Positions 7,595 to 28,563 of a stretch of DNA of 43,162 nucleotides are shown here, piece after piece. Source of the DNA: Baaleninema simplex PCC 7105 (lineage in GTDB: Bacteria > Cyanobacteriota > Cyanobacteriia > Cyanobacteriales > Geitlerinemataceae); the NCBI RefSeq assembly GCF_000332355.1, contig NZ_KB235959.1, positions 457,231-500,392 of the forward strand, written 5' to 3'. Made by a program: the position numbers and the translations under genes. The notes under the pieces are model-generated. The model saw nothing but the letters and a program-made list of their open reading frames with translations. It was not told where the DNA came from and did not search any database. Numbering within the stretch: the stretch's first letter is position 1; each line of letters opens with the position of its first letter.

Positions 7595-8608
7595 GTGCCT
7601 GTGGTGACCTGGAAATCTGCCCCCCATCTCATCCTGCGAACCGAATCTGGCTCGCGTTACCTTCCCTTATCGGGAAATAACTGCTGGACGTTCGGCCGCA
7701 GCGATGACAACCAGATTACACTCCCCGATCGATGGGTGTCCCGCGCTCACGCCATGGTTCAGCAAACAGATTTGGGTGAGTTTTACTTAATCGATCTCGG
7801 TTCTCGCAACGGTACGTTCGTCAACGGACGACGGGTCAGCGTTCCCGTACGCCTCAACAACGGCGATCGCGTCACCCTCGGCCAAACCGAACTGACGTTC
7901 TATTCTCCCACCAAAACAGCCCCCGACCCGGACGACACCGATACAGAAGACTCCGGCGCCACGGCGGTTTTATCAGTACGGCGGTTGATTTCAGTCATGG
8001 TGGTCGATATTCGAGACTTTACCGTCTTGACCCGCCAGCTCGACGAACGAATGCTCTCAGAAATCATCGGAACCTGGTTTCGACGGGCCGGAAATATCAT
8101 CCGCGAAGCGGGAAGTTGGGTCGATAAATATATCGGCGATGCGGTGATGGCGGTTTGGTTCCACAGCGCCCCGGAAATCGGCCAGGAAGGCGTCAGTAAA
8201 GAAGAAGTACTCCGCATCTGTCAAGCGTTGGGAGAACTGCACCACATGACGCGGGAACTCAGCGATCGCTACCCCCTCCCGTTCCCGTTGCGGATCGGTG
8301 CGGGGGTCAATACAGGATACGCGATGGTGGGGAATACGGGAACCGGCGATCGCCCCGACTACACCGCCCTCGGAGACACCGTCAACGCAGCCTTTCGCTT
8401 AGAATCCGCCACGAAAGAACTCCACAAAGACGTGGCCTTGGGCGAAACGACCTATCACTATCTCAGCGCCATCAAAGCCAGTCGAGACCTGTTTGAAGAA
8501 CACCGCGTCATCCTCAAAGGCTACGATCGCCCCACCCTCACCTACGCCGGTAGTTTCGACGATCTCGATTCCTTCGTGCGCGTCAGCTATCAAGAAATCG
8601 AAGTTTGA
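7595..8608 (+). CDS. FHA domain-class III adenylate cyclase
   Basis: 337 aa with a GTG start at 7595; AGAGAG lies just upstream and later GTGs exist. The N-terminal FHA phosphothreonine-binding domain (about 28-105) shows FGRS 33-36, SRAH 49-52 and DLGSRNGTFVNG 67-78. After an acidic linker comes a class III cyclase domain (about 130-320). Metal aspartates are D138 (VVDIRDF) and D182 (KYIGDAV). Adenine-selecting K178 and T257 are present, as are transition-state N264 and R268 in GDTVNAAFRLE. All catalytic positions are filled, so an active adenylate cyclase is predicted. There is no membrane segment, so it is cytosolic. The FHA domain suggests control by Ser/Thr kinase phosphorylation; no kinase gene lies in the window. 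Confidence 0.93.
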   Translation: MPVVTWKSAPHLILRTESGSRYLPLSGNNCWTFGRSDDNQITLPDRWVSRAHAMVQQTDLGEFYLIDLGSRNGTFVNGRRVSVPVRLNNGDRVTLGQTELTFYSPTKTAPDPDDTDTEDSGATAVLSVRRLISVMVVDIRDFTVLTRQLDERMLSEIIGTWFRRAGNIIREAGSWVDKYIGDAVMAVWFHSAPEIGQEGVSKEEVLRICQALGELHHMTRELSDRYPLPFPLRIGAGVNTGYAMVGNTGTGDRPDYTALGDTVNAAFRLESATKELHKDVALGETTYHYLSAIKASRDLFEEHRVILKGYDRPTLTYAGSFDDLDSFVRVSYQEIEV

Positions 8609-8690
8609 CCGTCCCGACGAGAAAAGTACGCATCGGACGAATTTCGCGCGATCCCCATCGAACGAGCCGTGATAGAGATGTCGTGGAAAA

Positions 8691-8699
8691 TGGTACTAT
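8691..8699 (+). promoter_or_regulatory. Candidate extended -10 promoter of psbU
   Basis: TGG followed by TACTAT (8694-8699) matches the extended -10 form TGnTAnnnT, 43 bases before the psbU ATG. No good -35 hexamer is visible 16-18 bases upstream. Confidence 0.4.
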
Positions 8700-8741
8700 T
8701 GACGGTAAAACTTGCATATCATCGAGAGAGGGATTGAATTA

Positions 8742-9131
8742 ATGAAACGACTGGTGCGCCTGTTAACGGTTGTTTGCTTGCTCGTCGGTTTGGCGGGATG
8801 GGTCGGACTGCCTCAACCTGCCATGGCCAACGAAGGAGGAGCATTGAAAAACTCCTTCGACGTCAAACTCAAAACGGAGTTTGGAGAGAAACTCGATCTC
8901 AACAACACCAACCTCCGGGCGTTCCGCAAATATCGCGGGATGTATCCCACGCTCGCTACGCTCGTGATCGAACACGCTCCTTACGAAAACGTCGAAGACG
9001 TGCTAGATATTCCGGGGTTGAGCGAACGTCAGAAAGAAATTCTGCAAGCGAACTTAGATAAGTTCACAGTGACCGAACCCGAATCCTTCCTCATCGAAGG
9101 CGACGATCGCATTAACAACGGGATTTACTAA
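8742..9131 (+). CDS. psbU: Photosystem II 12 kDa extrinsic protein PsbU
   Basis: 129 aa from ATG 8742, preceded by GAGAGAGGGA; the frame is open further upstream but family and signal peptide favour this ATG. The N-terminus is a typical lumen signal (MKRL, hydrophobic core, cleavage after PAMA at residue 29). The mature ~100 residues carry the PsbU helix-hairpin-helix fold: [20 protein letters not shown], then [20 protein letters not shown]. PsbU sits on the lumenal face of photosystem II and stabilises the Mn4CaO5 oxygen-evolving cluster. It is the clearest marker that the host is a cyanobacterium. It is monocistronic-looking, with a hairpin just after the stop. Confidence 0.96.
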
Positions 9132-21970: not shown

Positions 21971-22633
21971 CTACAACAGTCCTCGATAGCGGATAAATAG
22001 TAAAATGGCCGCCCAAGAGCCCAACGCCACCTTAATGGCTACCAAAATATTCAAAATCGGTATCCAACCGCCGCTGATGAGGGTTCCCACCTCGCCGTGG
22101 GGCGGTTCTATCCCCACCAAAGACAACCCGGCCAGCACAATAAACACCAATACCGAAATCTTCTCCCACGTCGCGGCGTGCCAGCGTTGGTAAATCGCTT
22201 CCATCCACTGAGGCGAAGAGGTAATCGCCACCAATCCGATCGCCGTTCCGCCAGCCACCCCAGCCGCAAAACCACCGCCGGGACTGAGATGTCCTCGAAT
22301 CGCCAGTTCGATGCTGATGAGAGCCGAAATCGTCGCCCCCAGACGGGCCAGCACGATCGACGGGCCGTCGTTAAATTGATAGACCGTACAGGTGGGGCGT
22401 TCGTCCGCCAGCAGAAACCGCACCCCTAAAATTGCCAACGTAAAGACCACCACTTCAAAAATCGTGTCGTAGAGGCGATTTCTAAAAATAATGCCCGACA
22501 CCGCATTGGGGACGCCGCTGTCTTGCACGATGGTTTCAACGATCGAAACATCCGTCAAGTTGAGATCGGGATCGGGAAAAAACAGTATTTTCAAGCACAG
22601 AGCGATCCCCGCAGCCAAATAAACCCACTTCAT
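21971..22633 (-). CDS. mrpB: Mrp antiporter subunit B with fused MbhE-like N-terminus
   Basis: 220 aa. Residues ~95-220 form the MnhB/MrpB membrane domain (LARLGATISALISIELAIRGHLSPGGGFAAGVAGG, here spanning two segments). Residues 1-75 resemble the C-terminal MbhE-like piece that normally ends MrpA: a TM, a short loop with NAVSGIIFRNRLYDT, then EVVVFTLAILGVRFLL. So part of MrpA appears fused to MrpB. The start overlaps the previous stop (ATGA). Last gene of the operon. The complex exchanges Na+ for H+ across the membrane. Confidence 0.85.
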   Translation of the reverse strand: MKWVYLAAGIALCLKILFFPDPDLNLTDVSIVETIVQDSGVPNAVSGIIFRNRLYDTIFEVVVFTLAILGVRFLLADERPTCTVYQFNDGPSIVLARLGATISALISIELAIRGHLSPGGGFAAGVAGGTAIGLVAITSSPQWMEAIYQRWHAATWEKISVLVFIVLAGLSLVGIEPPHGEVGTLISGGWIPILNILVAIKVALGSWAAILLFIRYRGLL

Positions 22634-23307
22634 GATGAAGTCTCCGTTGAATCGTCCGACATTCCCATTTCCGGCGGCTTCTTCAAACCGCTCGAGTCAG
22701 TGGGGTTGACATAAACTAACTCCGCCGTAGGGGGGAGTTGCCCCTGTAAGATCTCGTAGAGCCGCCGGACTCGCGTCTGAAGCTGGTAAACGGGCGCAGA
22801 ATCTGACGCCGGAGACTCTGCCGGTTCTGACTTCAAGGTCTCCTTCGAGGTCAGCCAAATCGTATGCACGTCTTTAGTCGTTAGAGCAGCTTGTAACGCC
22901 AGCGGACTGGCGTAAGTCACCAGTTCGAGACGCATATGATATTTTCCCAGAGATTGCCGCAGTGCCGAGAGAACTGGAGCCGTTGGGTGAGATCGATCGA
23001 TCTCCGAGACGGCGACGATCTCAGCCTCACCCGACGTTGAGATGGTCTCGGGAGCCAGAACCCCAACGCGCATCATCAAAGAAGAGCGCACCGCGATCGC
23101 ATACAGCGTAATCGAGAGCATCGTCCCGACGAGAGCTTCCGTCAGCGCCACGTCCGCCGCCCCAAACAGAGCGTACACGAGGGCAGCGACAGCCCCTAAA
23201 ATGCCGCGAATCACCAGAGCGTGGTAGGGATTGACCTGCGTGACCAACATTCCCGCCGTTAACGGCAACAAGGCGACGATCGCCACCACGTACCAATCCT
23301 CAGTCAT
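22630..23307 (-). CDS. MbhD-like (MrpA tail) subunit with long soluble C-terminus
   Basis: 225 aa. The first ~80 residues hold three TM segments of the MbhD/DUF4040 type (PYHALVIRGILGAVAALVYA, FGAADVALTEALVGTMLS), which are found near the C-terminus of MrpA in other bacteria. The remaining ~145 residues (about 81-225) are hydrophilic, beginning APETISTSGEAE and containing QLQTRVRRLYEILQGQLPP. They match no Mrp subunit that I know. The start overlaps mrpG by 8 bp and the end overlaps mrpB by 4 bp. The soluble tail should lie in the cytoplasm if the topology follows MrpA, and a regulatory role is only a guess. Confidence 0.8.
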   Translation of the reverse strand: MTEDWYVVAIVALLPLTAGMLVTQVNPYHALVIRGILGAVAALVYALFGAADVALTEALVGTMLSITLYAIAVRSSLMMRVGVLAPETISTSGEAEIVAVSEIDRSHPTAPVLSALRQSLGKYHMRLELVTYASPLALQAALTTKDVHTIWLTSKETLKSEPAESPASDSAPVYQLQTRVRRLYEILQGQLPPTAELVYVNPTDSSGLKKPPEMGMSDDSTETSS

Positions 23308-23578
23308 TGCCTCCTCCCTCCGTCGAACAGTAGGCCAGCACGTAGCCCAGCACCGTATTCCAGATGGCCAGAGAAATCAGCGCCAGTACCAACAGCGGCC
23401 ATTCCTTGGGAATTTTCAGCAGTAGACCGACAATGACCGCCATCGATCCCAAGGTATCGGAGACCGAGAGGCTATGGAGTTTATAGAGTACCGATCGATG
23501 TCCCAAAAGCGGCCAAGTCCCCCAAAACCAGAAGACAACGCCAAGTCCCATCAATCCATAACTCAAAGCATCTATCAT
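23300..23578 (-). CDS. mrpG: Mrp antiporter subunit G
   Basis: 92 aa with three TM segments of the MnhG/PhaG family: FWFWGTWPLLGHRSVLYKLH, SDTLGSMAVIVGLLLKI and LAIWNTVLGYVLAY. MrpG is a small accessory membrane subunit of the Mrp Na+/H+ antiporter. It overlaps mrpF upstream by 4 bp (ATGA) and the MbhD-like gene downstream by 8 bp, so translation is likely coupled. Family length and hydrophobic pattern are normal. Confidence 0.88.
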   Translation of the reverse strand: MIDALSYGLMGLGVVFWFWGTWPLLGHRSVLYKLHSLSVSDTLGSMAVIVGLLLKIPKEWPLLVLALISLAIWNTVLGYVLAYCSTEGGGND

Positions 23579-23829
23579 AATTCGTTTAAGCGTCTGAGAA
23601 CGTGAGCCAACAACATTAACGCCGCATTACCGACACTTAAAATCAATACCCCCACCACGCCGATCGTCCAGTCGTCCCGCAAGACGGCAACCACCAAAAT
23701 CAAGATCGACGTTTTCGTTGCGATGCTGGCAAAAGCCAGCATTTTTTGCCAGATGTTGTCATCCTGCCAAGCTTCGTAAATCGGAAGCAGCAAGGCCAAA
23801 ATCATGGTAATTAAGATGGCGTTCATCAT
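23575..23829 (-). CDS. mrpF: Mrp antiporter subunit F
   Basis: 84 aa with three TM segments of the MnhF/PhaF family: an N-terminal ILITMILALLLPIYEAW, a central FASIATKTSILILVVAVL, and VVGVLILSVGNAALMLLA. It overlaps mrpE and mrpG by 4 bp each. A small subunit of the Mrp complex. The charged loop EAWQDDNIWQK between TM1 and TM2 is normal for the family. Confidence 0.88.
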   Translation of the reverse strand: MMNAILITMILALLLPIYEAWQDDNIWQKMLAFASIATKTSILILVVAVLRDDWTIGVVGVLILSVGNAALMLLAHVLRRLNEL

Positions 23830-24254
23830 GGGGTCTCAGGCCCTCCCCGCTCCTGTACTCTCCCGTTTCCGCGTCGCTGCCGACGCACCCAATGCACTTT
23901 ATACCATCCGTCTTCTTGGTATTTCAAAACAATGGTCTTGGGCGTAAAGGTAATCAGAAAAATATCTAGAAAAATCAGCCCGAGGGTGCGATTGGGCTTA
24001 ACCTGTTCCCGAGTCTGAACTTCCTGGGGATGGGGACGAAAGATCATTTCTAGGGCTTCGAGGTAAGCGATGGGAATGGCCTGGAGAATTTCCCAAAGAA
24101 CGTGAAGCCAGTCTTTGAGGACTGCCCGTTTTGTCGAGCTGCGCGGTAAGAGGAAGGCCACCGCCACCCCAATGAAGATATTGGCCGGGCTGAGGTCGGC
24201 GGTGAGTAAAAACCAGATCGTCAGTCGCAGCAGTAAATCTAGATAGCCAATCAT
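23826..24254 (-). CDS. mrpE: Mrp antiporter subunit E
   Basis: 142 aa from ATG 24254, which overlaps the mrpD stop by 4 bp; the frame is open further but that part is antisense-like. Two N-terminal TM segments (LRLTIWFLLTADLSPANIF, GVAVAFLLP) are followed by a cytosolic part containing AIPIAYLEALEMIFRP and the family block LIFLDIFLITFTPKTIVLKY. The C-terminus is basic, then Gly/Pro-rich. MnhE/MrpE stabilises the antiporter complex. Same operon. Confidence 0.87.
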   Translation of the reverse strand: MIGYLDLLLRLTIWFLLTADLSPANIFIGVAVAFLLPRSSTKRAVLKDWLHVLWEILQAIPIAYLEALEMIFRPHPQEVQTREQVKPNRTLGLIFLDIFLITFTPKTIVLKYQEDGWYKVHWVRRQRRGNGRVQERGGPETP

Positions 24255-25684
24255 GCGAGAACCATCCAAAAGAGAGCGATCGCCACTAAACTCATGACTC
24301 CGATTAGATGCTCGAATTCCTCGAGAACGCGGGGGGGCTGTACCAGGACTCGCCGAAATACCAGCCCGTAGGCCAGCCATCCGAGGGCGATCGTGGCTAA
24401 GGGTTTAATGATGTTGGTCGGGTTGTACGCTTCGTAATACACGCCGTTGGCAACGAAAAGCCCTGCCACCAACAACCCAACGGCCAGCCAAAACCCCGGT
24501 TTTGCCTTCGATTCGGCTTGAGTGTCGTGGGGCAGAAAAACGAACTTGGCAAAAGAAATTGCCGTTCCGACGGCGGCTAGATTCATGGCGACGACTTGCC
24601 AGGGCAGAAGGTTTTTCATGGTCAGGACTTTCGCTCCAAATCCAGACAGCAGGGGAAAACCCGAAATTGAAAAGCTGGCAACGGCCAAGGGCAGCCAAAC
24701 TTGGGTGGCGATCGGTTCGAGCCGAAGTGTCTTGAGGTTGCGGCTCGGTAGGTTTCCGGCAATGAGAAAGAGTGCGGATTTGACGAGTCCGTGGGTGAGG
24801 GCGTAAAATCCCGCCACCTCGGGCGCGGCCAGAACGAAGCCCAGTTGTGACACGGTGGAAAACGCCAGCATCCGCTTGGTGTCTTGTTCTAAGACGGTGT
24901 AGACCACGCCCAGCAAGGCAGCGCCGACGCCAAACAACCGCACGAGGGGATCGATTTCTTCGGCGAGCAAAGCGCAACGGACGAGGGGAAAGACTCCGGC
25001 TTTGACGCCGATTCCCGATAACATTGCCGAGACTGGGGTTTCTGATTCTGAGTGAGTCAGGGGCAGCCACAGCCCGGAGACGAAGACGCCTCCTTTGGTG
25101 AGCAGTCCGACAAAGATCAGAGCTTGGGCTTCTGTGGGGGCCTGTGCGAGTCCGGTGAAGGCGAAGGATTGGTGGGTTTGATAGACCATCGCCGCGCCAA
25201 TGAGATAGAACAGCATGGCGGTGTTGCTCACGAACAGGTAGCGCAGCCCCACCCAAATCGATCGATTGCTGCGGGGGTAAGTGATGAGGAGAAAGGCAGC
25301 AATGCCGATGACTTCTAAGGCCACGTACAGGCTGATGAAGTCGGCGCAGATGAAAGCGGAGTTGACGCTTCCGTGGAGGAGGATAATTTGGGTGAAGAAG
25401 AACGCCGGTCGATCGCCAGCCCAGCAGTAGAGTAGAACCGCCAGTGTTACGAGGGCGTTGGTGAGGATAAAGAAACCGCTGAGGGAATCGATCGTCAGTG
25501 TCACCCCGAAGTTGTCGAGGAGTTGTAAAGTAACCGGAGACGACCGTAGCACCTGCTGCATCCCGTAGCCCAGGGATACGAGGGATACCGCCACAGCCAG
25601 GTAGCGAGAGAGCTGTGGCAGTAGGTAAATGCTAAAGCCGACTAAAAACGGCAGAGTAATCCAGGCAATGGAGATCGCAGTCAT
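24251..25684 (-). CDS. mrpD: Mrp antiporter subunit D (NuoM/N-like)
   Basis: 477 aa, with about 13-14 TM segments of the proton-conducting antiporter family (MnhD/NuoN-like). Family residues visible include the TM5-type glutamate in SLYVALEVIGIAAFLL, the TM7-type lysine in VGLLTKGGVFVSGLWLPLTH, the TM8-type IGVKAGVFPLVR, and VLEQDTKRMLAFSTVSQLGFVL and LTHGLVKSALFLIAGN. These charged residues form the proton path. It is the only such subunit in the operon. Cyanobacterial relatives I recall often carry two D subunits. Overlaps both neighbours by 4 bp. Confidence 0.9.
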   Translation of the reverse strand: MTAISIAWITLPFLVGFSIYLLPQLSRYLAVAVSLVSLGYGMQQVLRSSPVTLQLLDNFGVTLTIDSLSGFFILTNALVTLAVLLYCWAGDRPAFFFTQIILLHGSVNSAFICADFISLYVALEVIGIAAFLLITYPRSNRSIWVGLRYLFVSNTAMLFYLIGAAMVYQTHQSFAFTGLAQAPTEAQALIFVGLLTKGGVFVSGLWLPLTHSESETPVSAMLSGIGVKAGVFPLVRCALLAEEIDPLVRLFGVGAALLGVVYTVLEQDTKRMLAFSTVSQLGFVLAAPEVAGFYALTHGLVKSALFLIAGNLPSRNLKTLRLEPIATQVWLPLAVASFSISGFPLLSGFGAKVLTMKNLLPWQVVAMNLAAVGTAISFAKFVFLPHDTQAESKAKPGFWLAVGLLVAGLFVANGVYYEAYNPTNIIKPLATIALGWLAYGLVFRRVLVQPPRVLEEFEHLIGVMSLVAIALFWMVLA

Positions 25685-26022
25685 GGCGTGTTATTTTTTT
25701 CGATTTCACGAATCTCCAGGGTGGGCGTGTCCCGCGACAGTTTCATCGCTCCCACGAGAATTAGGGCTTGGATGGAAAAGCCAATGACGATCGCCGTCAG
25801 AATGACCGCTTGCGGGACGGGATCGGCGTAGTCAACGGCTTCGCCTCCGGTGTCGATCGGTGCTAACAGACCGTCTCGTGCTGCCACCCAGACGTACCAG
25901 GCGATGACTCCTGTACTCATGACATCCATCGCCAAGATTTTCATCATCAGGTTCCGTTTCCAAATGATGCCGAAAAAACCGCAAAAGACGGTGGCAAAAA
26001 TAAAGGCTTCTAAGATAGGCAT
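25681..26022 (-). CDS. mrpC: Mrp antiporter subunit C (NuoK-like)
   Basis: 113 aa from ATG 26022 (MPILEAFIFATVFCGFFG). Upstream codons in the open frame look non-coding. Three TM segments of the MnhC/NuoK type: the first as above, then a second with LMMKILAMDVMSTGVIAWYV and a third with DPVPQAVILTAIVIGFSIQA. First gene of the seven-gene operon that runs to mrpB. Confidence 0.87.
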   Translation of the reverse strand: MPILEAFIFATVFCGFFGIIWKRNLMMKILAMDVMSTGVIAWYVWVAARDGLLAPIDTGGEAVDYADPVPQAVILTAIVIGFSIQALILVGAMKLSRDTPTLEIREIEKNNTP

Positions 26023-26377: not shown

Positions 26378-27499
26378 TTAAAGTCGATTTAACTTGCCAA
26401 TAATTTCCTGCCATTTTTGTTTGTGAATGAGTTGTATTTCTTTGTCTTTTTGTACTAAATCAGAATATCGAGATACAAAATCATCCAAGGAAGCAATAAG
26501 CCTTAGATAATATTTGAGAGTGGGAACTATTCCATTCACAATAACTTGACAGCCGTGTTTTATGGCGATTTCTCTTGTCTGATTTTTAATGTTTTCATAA
26601 TTAATTTCATGCGAAGAAAATATACAATAGCGGCGTGGATTGAATTTGTAAATTTTCTCTCGAGCAATCGCGATCACTGAGGTGTCGATCGGTTTGTTGT
26701 GTTTAATTTCAATAGCTTCTGTCAAATTTTTCTCAGCATCCAAAATTTCAATATCTCCCGCTGTCTTAGATTTTAAGTCTGAGGCTGTATGACTTCCTAA
26801 ATCTTTCAAACTACAGTCATGATATCTCTCAAGCTGTTGCAGCAACACAGTGAAAATCGCATAAAATGCCAAGACAGGTAACTTAGACGCACCGCGAACG
26901 CCATACGTACTGTTGAAATGCAGTGAAAGGCTTTCGACGAGAGAGTCAATATCCAAACGTTCGGGATTTTTTAACGGCGAAATTTCGATATTTTTAGCGC
27001 TATCGCTTATTGTTTTAACCTGCTTGAGTAAAAGCATTAATATAGTATTAGCACAATCGAGATCGATGATTTGAACGTAATAGACGAGTTTTAAAAAAGC
27101 CTTTTTAACCTTTTTATCGCCAATTTTACCTTCATAATTCAAAGTGTAAGGATACGGTTGCTCGAGGGAGCGAGTCAACCAGCCAGTTTCTGCCATTGCT
27201 GGGAGTTCTAAATCTCGTAAAGTGGGTGTAATATACTTAGTGTCTATAGTGCGCCCAGAAAACCCATTCTCTAATTGTTCTTGATGATATCGAATATCTT
27301 GCTTTGGGTTTAAAATTTTATGAACTAAAAGCGTCACTAAGACCGTATAAACGCCTTTGAAAGATAGTGATTTTTCAGCAATCGTGCGTATGTGCTTTTG
27401 GACATATTCAGGTAATTCACGTTCTAATTTTGTAACCTGAGACTCTTCGAGATCGATAGATTTTGAATATAACTCTTTCAGTTTTTGCGCGTGGTTCAT
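26378..27499 (-). CDS. Putative type II restriction endonuclease (PD-(D/E)XK)
   Basis: 373 aa, 2 bp downstream of a cytosine methyltransferase, the usual layout of a type II restriction-modification pair. A PD-(D/E)XK-like active site is visible: AGDIEIL with Asp249, then 14 residues to EAIEIK with Glu264 and Lys266. Upstream, residues 80-122 (FSGRTIDTKYITPTLRDLEL, then SLEQPYPYTLNYEG) probably belong to a DNA-contact region. The recognition site cannot be read. Codon use is AT-rich and poor in HIP1 sites compared with neighbours, indicating transfer. By context it cuts unmethylated DNA at the site protected by the upstream enzyme. Confidence 0.78.
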   Translation of the reverse strand: MNHAQKLKELYSKSIDLEESQVTKLERELPEYVQKHIRTIAEKSLSFKGVYTVLVTLLVHKILNPKQDIRYHQEQLENGFSGRTIDTKYITPTLRDLELPAMAETGWLTRSLEQPYPYTLNYEGKIGDKKVKKAFLKLVYYVQIIDLDCANTILMLLLKQVKTISDSAKNIEISPLKNPERLDIDSLVESLSLHFNSTYGVRGASKLPVLAFYAIFTVLLQQLERYHDCSLKDLGSHTASDLKSKTAGDIEILDAEKNLTEAIEIKHNKPIDTSVIAIAREKIYKFNPRRYCIFSSHEINYENIKNQTREIAIKHGCQVIVNGIVPTLKYYLRLIASLDDFVSRYSDLVQKDKEIQLIHKQKWQEIIGKLNRL

Positions 27500-27501
27500 G
27501 A

Positions 27502-28563
27502 TTACAAGCCAGGAATTGTTAGTTGCACCGGGGGTAAGGGTTGTTTAACCACCGCATCTGGTTGATACCTCGAACTCGAACTAAAAATCTTTTGATTTAT
27601 TACTTCACGAATCAGTTCTCGTACAACCGTTGTCGCGACGGAATTTCCAATTTGACGATAAGCATCTCCGATAACCGAGCTTTTTTTAAACTCTTTCGGA
27701 AAACCCATTATTTTATAGCATTCTTTCAATGTCAATTTACGAACTCTATCTTTCTCGGGTAAATAGATAAAAAATCGTCCAGAAGACTCCTGTGAAGGAA
27801 GCGTGGGATGAACGCCGTCAACGGAGTAAATTCGATTGGGTTGGCGATGGACTCGCGATAAATGCTCGGTATTCGGACGAATTCCCGTTTTCCAAATACT
27901 CTTATTTCGATATCCGACGAAAATCAGTCCTGAATCCTGTTTTTTGGGATTTTCAATGAGAGTGTATTCGTCGGGGGATAAATACTCAAAATTTTCTTCG
28001 TTGTCTAAGAAATCTTTTAAATTGGGAACGGGTTCAATTTTTTGAAGTTTAGAAAAATCGAACTTTTTATACTTAGAACCGACAATAAAAACTCGCTCTC
28101 GATTTTGAGGAAGTCCGAAATCTTTAGCGTTTAGTAATTTATAGGTGACGAGATACCCCAAGCTTTGAAGCGTATTTAAAATGACTTTAAAATTTGAACC
28201 TTTGGCAACGTGAAGCAAATGTTTGACATTTTCTAAAATAATGACTTCGGGTTGCTTCTGTTTTAAAAATTCGCATAAATAGAAAAATATGGTTCCTCGT
28301 TCGTCCGAAAAACCGCGACGCTTTCCGCAGATGCTGAACGGTTGACAGGGAAACCCCGCTGTGACGACGTTCACATCGGAAATTTGGCTAAAGTCCACTT
28401 CAGAAATATCGCCATCGGGGTAATCGCCAAAATTTTCAAAATAGACTTGGCGACAGGATTCGTTTGCTTCACACGAATACAGACATTTCAATCCTGCTTG
28501 TTCGAGTGAAAGTCGAAATCCGCCAATTCCGGAAAATATATCTGCGAAGGTTAACGAAGACAT
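27502..28563 (-). CDS. DNA (cytosine-5) methyltransferase
   Basis: 353 aa with all core motifs: I FADIFSGIGGFRLSLEQAG (6-24), IV GFPCQPFSI with catalytic Cys73, VI ENVKHL (111-116), VIII QNRERVFIVG (near 157-166), IX-X region with LTLKECYKIMGFP and YRQIGNSV. The target-recognition region lies between VIII and IX (about 200-275) and includes GYRNKSIWKTG and SRVHRQPNRIYS, so specificity is not deducible here. It methylates C5 of a cytosine in a specific site and would protect host DNA from the adjacent nuclease. AT-rich like its partner. Confidence 0.93.
   Translation of the reverse strand: MSSLTFADIFSGIGGFRLSLEQAGLKCLYSCEANESCRQVYFENFGDYPDGDISEVDFSQISDVNVVTAGFPCQPFSICGKRRGFSDERGTIFFYLCEFLKQKQPEVIILENVKHLLHVAKGSNFKVILNTLQSLGYLVTYKLLNAKDFGLPQNRERVFIVGSKYKKFDFSKLQKIEPVPNLKDFLDNEENFEYLSPDEYTLIENPKKQDSGLIFVGYRNKSIWKTGIRPNTEHLSRVHRQPNRIYSVDGVHPTLPSQESSGRFFIYLPEKDRVRKLTLKECYKIMGFPKEFKKSSVIGDAYRQIGNSVATTVVRELIREVINQKIFSSSSRYQPDAVVKQPLPPVQLTIPGL

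Follow-up and report, generated by a model that had tools for sequence, protein, structure and literature searches.

A seven-gene mrp operon with a single mrpD and a stand-alone MbhD-like gene in Baaleninema simplex PCC 7105

A seven-gene mrp operon on the minus strand

We analyzed the mrp operon found in a 43,162-nucleotide window of Baaleninema simplex PCC 7105 (contig NZ_KB235959.1, assembly GCF_000332355.1), to which all the coordinates given below refer. The operon spans positions 21971-26022 on the minus strand and consists of seven genes in the order C-D-E-F-G-MbhD-B, each overlapping the next by 4 bp at five junctions and by 8 bp at the G/MbhD junction, as an earlier sequence-only reading of this DNA had correctly described. 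It includes a single antiporter-like gene, mrpD, and an MbhD-like gene at the place of the Anabaena "mrpA", an arrangement that turned out to be the common one in its class.

Six of the seven predicted subunits (C, D, E, G, MbhD and B) matched their Pfam families above cut-off. Four of the proteins also passed curated NCBIfam models over nearly their full length: MrpC (NF005620), MrpD (NF005564), MrpB (NF009219) and the MbhD-like protein (NF005630, a model still named "hypothetical protein" in NCBIfam), while E, F and G passed no NCBIfam cut-off. mrpC (25681..26022) encodes a MbhG/NuoK-like protein (PF00420, 74.5 bits) whose best solved relative is 6u8y_G (E 4e-20). mrpD (24251..25684) encodes the sole antiporter-like subunit of the operon, which is MbhH/NuoN-like (PF00361, 128.3 bits; NF005564, 829 bits; best solved relative 6cfw_H, E 2e-19). 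mrpE (23826..24254), for which we chose as the probable start the ATG lying inside the mrpD stop, matched PF01899 with 34.9 bits for a cut-off of 27, and its profile matched PDB chains weakly (best E 0.0064). mrpG (23300..23578) matched PF03334 with 64.0 bits and was also only weakly similar to solved chains (best E 0.054), with MrpG and MbsC chains tying at E 0.05-0.08. D, B, C and MbhD gave clear matches to solved chains. Overall, the chains nearest to B, C, MbhD and, weakly, E belong to the MBS complex of Pyrococcus furiosus, and the one nearest to D is MbhH of its MBH complex.

The mrpF-like gene (23575..23829) was more difficult to assign. For its product, Pfam yielded nothing for MrpF up to E 1, and the closest MrpF model of NCBIfam scored E 0.029, so that the assignment as MrpF rests on position and size. 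PF04066 matched nowhere in the B. simplex genome, nor in a Synechococcus elongatus control genome that does match MbhD; a profile of the protein found nothing in the PDB up to E 10 and aligned with three canonical MrpF proteins from genomes of the same phylum with an hhalign probability of 0.5. In an alignment made by eye, the position of the essential MrpF Asp35 seemed to hold Ala, Ser, Gly or Thr instead, in front of a Lys (179 of 181) or an Arg (2 of 181), but we do not claim this replacement.

The last two genes of the operon encode proteins related to the C-terminal part of a canonical MrpA. The MbhD-like protein (22630..23307; PF13244, 55.2 bits), which occupies the place of the Anabaena "mrpA", consists of three transmembrane helices and a cytosolic domain, and residues 1-73 of its structural model match 6cfw_D (Z 11.5) and the C-terminal part of MrpA in 7d3u_A (Z 11.4). 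mrpB (21971..22633) encodes a MrpB protein (PF04039, 77.2 bits; NF009219 over its full length) with an additional N-terminal segment, as in MbsE-type fusions. The Pfam MbhE model (PF20501) scored 14.4 bits on this segment, below its cut-off of 27, and a search of the whole B. simplex genome with it gave no match. Nevertheless, a MrpB profile built from eight relatives matched best the MBS chain 6u8y_E (E 2e-13), followed by residues 717-877 of 7d3u_A (E 0.001), which correspond to the C-terminal part of Dietzia MrpA, and by 6cfw_E (E 0.005), which is the MbhE subunit of MBH. Since MbsE is itself described as a fusion of MbhE and MbhF (PMC8415708), this profile search argues for reading the N-terminus of MrpB as MbhE-like and provides a solved precedent for the fusion. 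Thus, the proposal that a MbhE-like segment is fused to MrpB was borne out despite the Pfam score, and Pfam matches and frame sizes agreed with a separate MbhD gene and with the lack of a NuoL-like MrpA body in the operon.

MrpA and MrpD in the genome and across the class

The sequence-only reading had contrasted the single MrpD of this operon with the two D of other cyanobacterial operons, and had taken its complex, which lacks a MrpA body, to resemble a minimal ancestor of MBH/Mrp systems. A genome-wide search (assembly 97.9% complete) identified eight PF00361 proteins. Seven of these belong to NDH-1, as three NdhF/NdhD pairs and a single unpaired NdhD-type protein, and the eighth is the MrpD described here, showing that neither a NuoL-type mrpA nor a second mrpD can be found in this assembly with PF00361; a second mrpD elsewhere in the genome was rejected on this basis, and the absence of mrpA and the single D were thereby confirmed. 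The genome also holds only one MbhD, in an open frame of 248 amino acids. As a caveat, NdhB was not found in this genome with either PF00361 or TIGR01770, although it scored above 400 bits in three of four other genomes searched, each of the three being a cyanobacterium from the order of B. simplex and the fourth coming from outside the class, indicating that something is missing from the assembly or hidden in it, probably through an assembly gap.

We then looked at the distribution of these genes. PF13244 matched in 97 of 292 genomes of the phylum, 93 of them within the class, and in all 93 the MbhD frame is 162-329 amino acids long, which is too short for a MrpA. Outside the class, four genomes have a MbhD, which in two of them lies in a frame of 797 or 865 amino acids together with an antiporter-like part. 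For the operon shapes, a D was counted when it scored at least 350 bits on the operon strand, within about 11 kb towards the D end and 3 kb towards the B end, or within 9 kb each way for a set of named loci, contigs permitting. The order C-D-E-F-G-MbhD-B was found in 19 of 29 relatives (all those with a match, our own genome excluded), with two adjacent D genes in four others and six left over. It was also found in 64 of 77 further class genomes with a MbhD match (four with two adjacent D, two with a further D nearby, seven left over) and in 66 of the 80 named loci (two, three and nine, respectively), which are the best 80 of 357 and hence close kin. The loci left over either have one D and differ in a small gene that is split, swapped or additional, or are truncated where a contig ends, or hold only part of the cluster. 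The regions L150-L152, all three from outside the class, were left out of these counts, and the three sets share species, so that their counts are not summed.

With a threshold of E 1e-60, which would miss more diverged D proteins, MrpD itself was present in 91 of the 145 genomes of the class sample. Two matches were found in 11 genomes, but those of G361 apparently come from a single gene broken across two contigs, so that 10 genomes have two D and 81 have one. The one-D operon is thus the majority state in the class sample, and a loss of mrpA or mrpD peculiar to B. simplex was rejected from the short MbhD frames, the copy numbers and the shared operon order. The idea that the operon is odd for a cyanobacterium was therefore not borne out. 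These counts also correct a more general expectation, since a review presents clusters with two D as the cyanobacterial Mrp (PMC5703873).

We placed 132 antiporter-like proteins in a tree made by a quick method, with SH-aLRT support only and long branches flagged. D1 and D2 are sisters in six of 14 two-D loci (L054, L062, L064, L102, L119 and L185), three more (L083, L084 and L090) share one joint D1/D2 clade, and the copies stand apart in the remaining five (L039, L096, L155, L156 and L166). This tree suggests that a single D was duplicated repeatedly to give most of the two-D loci, although gene conversion would look alike; it points in the direction opposite to the expectation of a two-D cyanobacterial norm. 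The "minimal ancestor" also found no support: the arrangement occurs throughout the class, MbhD lies in a frame of MrpA size in two genomes that belong to the phylum but not to the class, and the class may either have lost a NuoL-like MrpA or never have had one.

Several loci depart from this picture. In five genomes (G025, G301 and three from genera of family f13) the cluster is incomplete; each of them has both MrpD and MrpB somewhere in the genome, and two of the five, G137 and G145, carry two MrpD. The mrp genes appear dispersed at five loci: L060 has MbhD alone, and L089, L108, L135 and L136 show E-F-G-MbhD(-B) with neither C nor D close by. In all five genomes MrpD is located elsewhere; MrpB is in the cluster at L108, L135 and L136 and elsewhere for L060 and L089, and two MrpD are present in the genomes that hold L135 and L136. 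In G301, the genome of L089, MrpB matches lie in two overlapping frames (C2:1423625-1424294, residues 1-129 and 117-220), indicating that the gene is split or frameshifted within its MrpB part. Finally, mrpD and mrpE of L061, an otherwise normal one-D operon, are separated by an additional stretch of about 1.1 kb (7729-8860).

Conserved residues and the soluble domain of the MbhD-like protein

Among 177 different operon D proteins of at least 400 amino acids, MrpD residues E124, K197, K302 and K352 are present in all and K228 in 165, and E124, K197, K228 and K352 align with MrpD residues in alignments with PDB chains. We take these key residues to serve the proton path. Such roles are in part also described in PMC7419157, which in addition identifies D792 and E796 of Anoxybacillus flavithermus MrpA as Na+-exit residues. 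In the MrpB proteins, D56 and E60 are found in 184 of 185 rows, the remaining row being a gap, and the aligned MrpA and MbhE chains would place them at the position of this exit pair.

The residues of the cation site are different. MrpC has Thr37 in 166 of 169 proteins and Ile or Val40 in all 169, where canonical Mrp has His37 and His40. It has an invariant Asp33 (169/169) at the place of MbhG Asn34, and mostly Ser (158/169) at the place of MbhG Asp37/MbsG Glu37. In MbhD, the column of the canonical Glu706 is Gly in 185 of 185 rows, and a Glu57 located one turn earlier, like Glu58 of MbsD, is found in 179 (otherwise Gln). By these alignments, the MbhD site appears to be of the MBS type and the MrpC site a variant of its own. 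Without the canonical histidines of MrpC, the ion or its coupling could differ, as the earlier reading had suggested, but the support for this comes from differences in MrpC and MbhD that the class shares and not from a rearrangement specific to this genome.

The MbhD-like protein was initially seen as a three-helix protein standing alone. The three helices and the separate gene were confirmed, but about 150 further residues follow, much of which are predicted to form a folded domain (22630..23082, from about residue 76 onward). AlphaFold gave pLDDT values of 83-97 in 10-residue blocks over much of this stretch and poorer loops at 50-75. Foldseek returned no match at E 0.001 or better, its best for the domain alone being 1xs5 (E 3e-3, TMq 0.31, root-mean-square deviation (rmsd) 2.4 over 74 columns). 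With VIA-align 2, for which the trust level is 8, matches of the domain alone reached Z 6.2-7.5 (best Z 7.5, rmsd 3.3 over 91 residues), including the isolated domain 1 of TmArgBP (6gpc_A; Z 6.4, 3.8 A over 96 residues), and the whole model matched porphobilinogen deaminase at Z 8.0 (rmsd 3.3 over 93 residues), all of them at or under that level. Judging from their names, most of the listed Foldseek rows and nearly all of the VIA-align rows are presumably proteins of the type-II periplasmic-binding-protein (PBP-II) fold: periplasmic binding proteins, LysR-type effector domains and porphobilinogen deaminase. Pfam NlpA also matched weakly in four of 30 MbhD members (best E 0.035). The predicted fold may thus resemble, if weakly, one lobe of a PBP-II protein. 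The domain is variable: a simple pattern recovered its sequence motif in 168 of the 185 rows.

A role of this domain in regulation is speculation. It is conceivable, but rather doubtful, that a class-wide cytosolic domain similar to a single PBP-II/LysR-effector lobe may act as a ligand- or partner-sensing regulator of a Mrp with one proton path and, together with a cation site rebuilt around MrpC Asp33 and MbhD Glu57, may make both the H+/Na+ stoichiometry and the regulation differ from canonical Mrp. In any case, this unannotated domain and the cation-site residues, which are MBH/MBS-like and include an invariant Asp of MrpC, are features that deserve attention.

Proposed function and relation to known systems

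Group 3 Mrp systems are defined as having no mrpA and only mrpD, at times in several copies (PMC8415708). The B. simplex genome has no full-length mrpA (NuoL-like plus MbhD/E), mrpB, C, D, E and G are clustered and all above Pfam cut-off, and the separate full-length MrpA of group 1 was not found. Considering its gene content, homology, conserved residues and distribution, which form the direct basis of our proposal, we consider it very likely that the operon encodes an ordinary cyanobacterial group 3 Mrp (CPA3), a single membrane complex of seven subunits catalyzing Na+/H+ antiport driven by the proton motive force through a single H+ path. One H+ path and the lack of a redox arm in the operon make this the likeliest mode. 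In such a complex, cytoplasmic Na+ would be exchanged for external H+: H+ would move through MrpD, Na+ would move along a MrpE/F/G-MbhD-C-B path and leave MrpB through Asp56/Glu60 in its MbhE segment, and the two would be coupled near the MrpC/MbhD/MrpD cavity. The H+:Na+ ratio may be comparatively low. For the cell, this would mean Na+ export and a steadier cytoplasmic pH, hence support for Na+-dependent bicarbonate uptake. For this locus, we infer the assembly of the complex, its ion, the direction of transport and its stoichiometry.

Several points weigh against this proposal: MrpF is assigned by position only, neither of the two histidines that bind the cation in canonical Mrp is present in MrpC, and no vesicle assay of a cyanobacterial complex with one D came up in the literature searched. 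Furthermore, the opposite direction (H+ out, Na+ in) was proposed for the Mrp of P. furiosus that has one D and no MrpA, which lowered our confidence, and deletion of that Mrp left the optimal Na+ and pH unchanged (PMC8415708). In favor of the proposal, overexpression of Mrp from Synechocystis 6803, 7002 and 7942 was reported to improve the salt tolerance of S. elongatus UTEX 2973, in an account that does not state the number of D (PMC7264159), and the salt-sensitive mutant and CO2 response of Anabaena described below are further observations of others on relatives.

Four neighbors of the operon were scanned. A C5 cytosine DNA methylase (353 amino acids) lies 2 bp from a 373-amino-acid protein without Pfam match (26378-28563, minus strand), and the two look like a restriction-modification pair located between the mrp operon and a phosphohexomutase gene. 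A Na+/Ca2+ exchanger-family protein (PF01699; 17676-18755) is encoded on the same minus strand near the operon.

Three other explanations were considered. A reduced or ancestral complex that its missing mrpA and single mrpD would set apart from other cyanobacteria appears very improbable: the genome does lack mrpA and does carry a single mrpD, and the five two-D loci with copies apart in the tree imply that some two-D states are older, but the 93 short MbhD frames, the 81 one-D genomes among 91, and the nine two-D loci with sister copies or a joint clade largely refute it. It is also unlikely that the complex does not stand alone but works with another module, such as a NDH-1 subunit or an energy-input partner, as MBH and MBS do with their hydrogenase-like arms. 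Its subunits do correspond to the Mrp-like module of MBH/MBS, with B, C, MbhD, E and D closest to chains of these complexes, and what drives the Pyrococcus Mrp that lacks MrpA is described as unknown (PMC8415708). However, no redox genes, and no hydrogenase-like arm as encoded in MBH/MBS, were found among the four neighbors, to which that scan was confined, and the stand-alone P. furiosus Mrp has a phenotype of its own (sensitivity to medium acidification) with Na+ as the coupling ion (PMC8415708).

Exchange of another cation, K+ or Ca2+, is similarly improbable. The substitutions at MrpC positions 33, 37 and 40 and the shifted Glu57 of MbhD would fit a coupling site that differs from canonical Mrp, and the Anabaena mrp operon responds to Ca2+ shifts (PMC4915528), but the two-D cluster of Aphanothece was reported to be a Na+/H+ antiporter (PMC5703873), and MBH and MBS, which have related sites, are reported to pump Na+. 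Na+/H+ antiport by a group 3 Mrp thus remains our preferred explanation, and one-D cyanobacterial clusters, present also in laboratory strains such as Anabaena 7120, offer a natural test of how many proton paths a Mrp needs.

The arrangement itself is already known, being covered by the definition of group 3 and by cyanobacterial clusters in print. In Anabaena (Nostoc) sp. PCC 7120, all1843-all1837 show the same order according to the published gene lists, with a single mrpD (all1842) followed by E, F, G, all1838 annotated as "mrpA" at the place of MbhD, and all1837 as mrpB (PMC4915528; PMC7699953). The lists show no difference from our operon, and the class-wide short MbhD frame does not suggest the group 1 to which a review assigned the Anabaena cluster (PMC5703873). 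These genes were induced 5.4-fold by CO2 stepdown and respond to Ca2+ shifts (PMC4915528; PMC7699953), a mrpA mutant is cited as salt-sensitive, and mrpCDEFGAB is also printed for Acaryochloris (both in PMC8949462). The clusters of Aphanothece halophytica (mrpCD1D2EFGAB, with a "mrpA" named before mrpB) and Synechocystis 6803, filed under group 3, have by description the same order except for extra copies, that is, two mrpD instead of the one found here (PMC5703873). The stand-alone Mrp of P. furiosus (mrpEFGBB'CD) shares with our operon the lack of MrpA and of an energy-input module and the presence of only one MrpD (PMC8415708), but its MrpB is a fusion of MbhD and MbhE, whereas in B. simplex MbhD is a separate protein and MbhE is joined to MrpB. 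In this respect, the B. simplex operon resembles the MBS of P. furiosus (6u8y), in which MbsD stands alone and MbsE is a MbhE-MbhF fusion, and its single D resembles the single MbhH of MBH (6cfw), although both of these complexes carry a redox arm and MBS also carries MbsH'.

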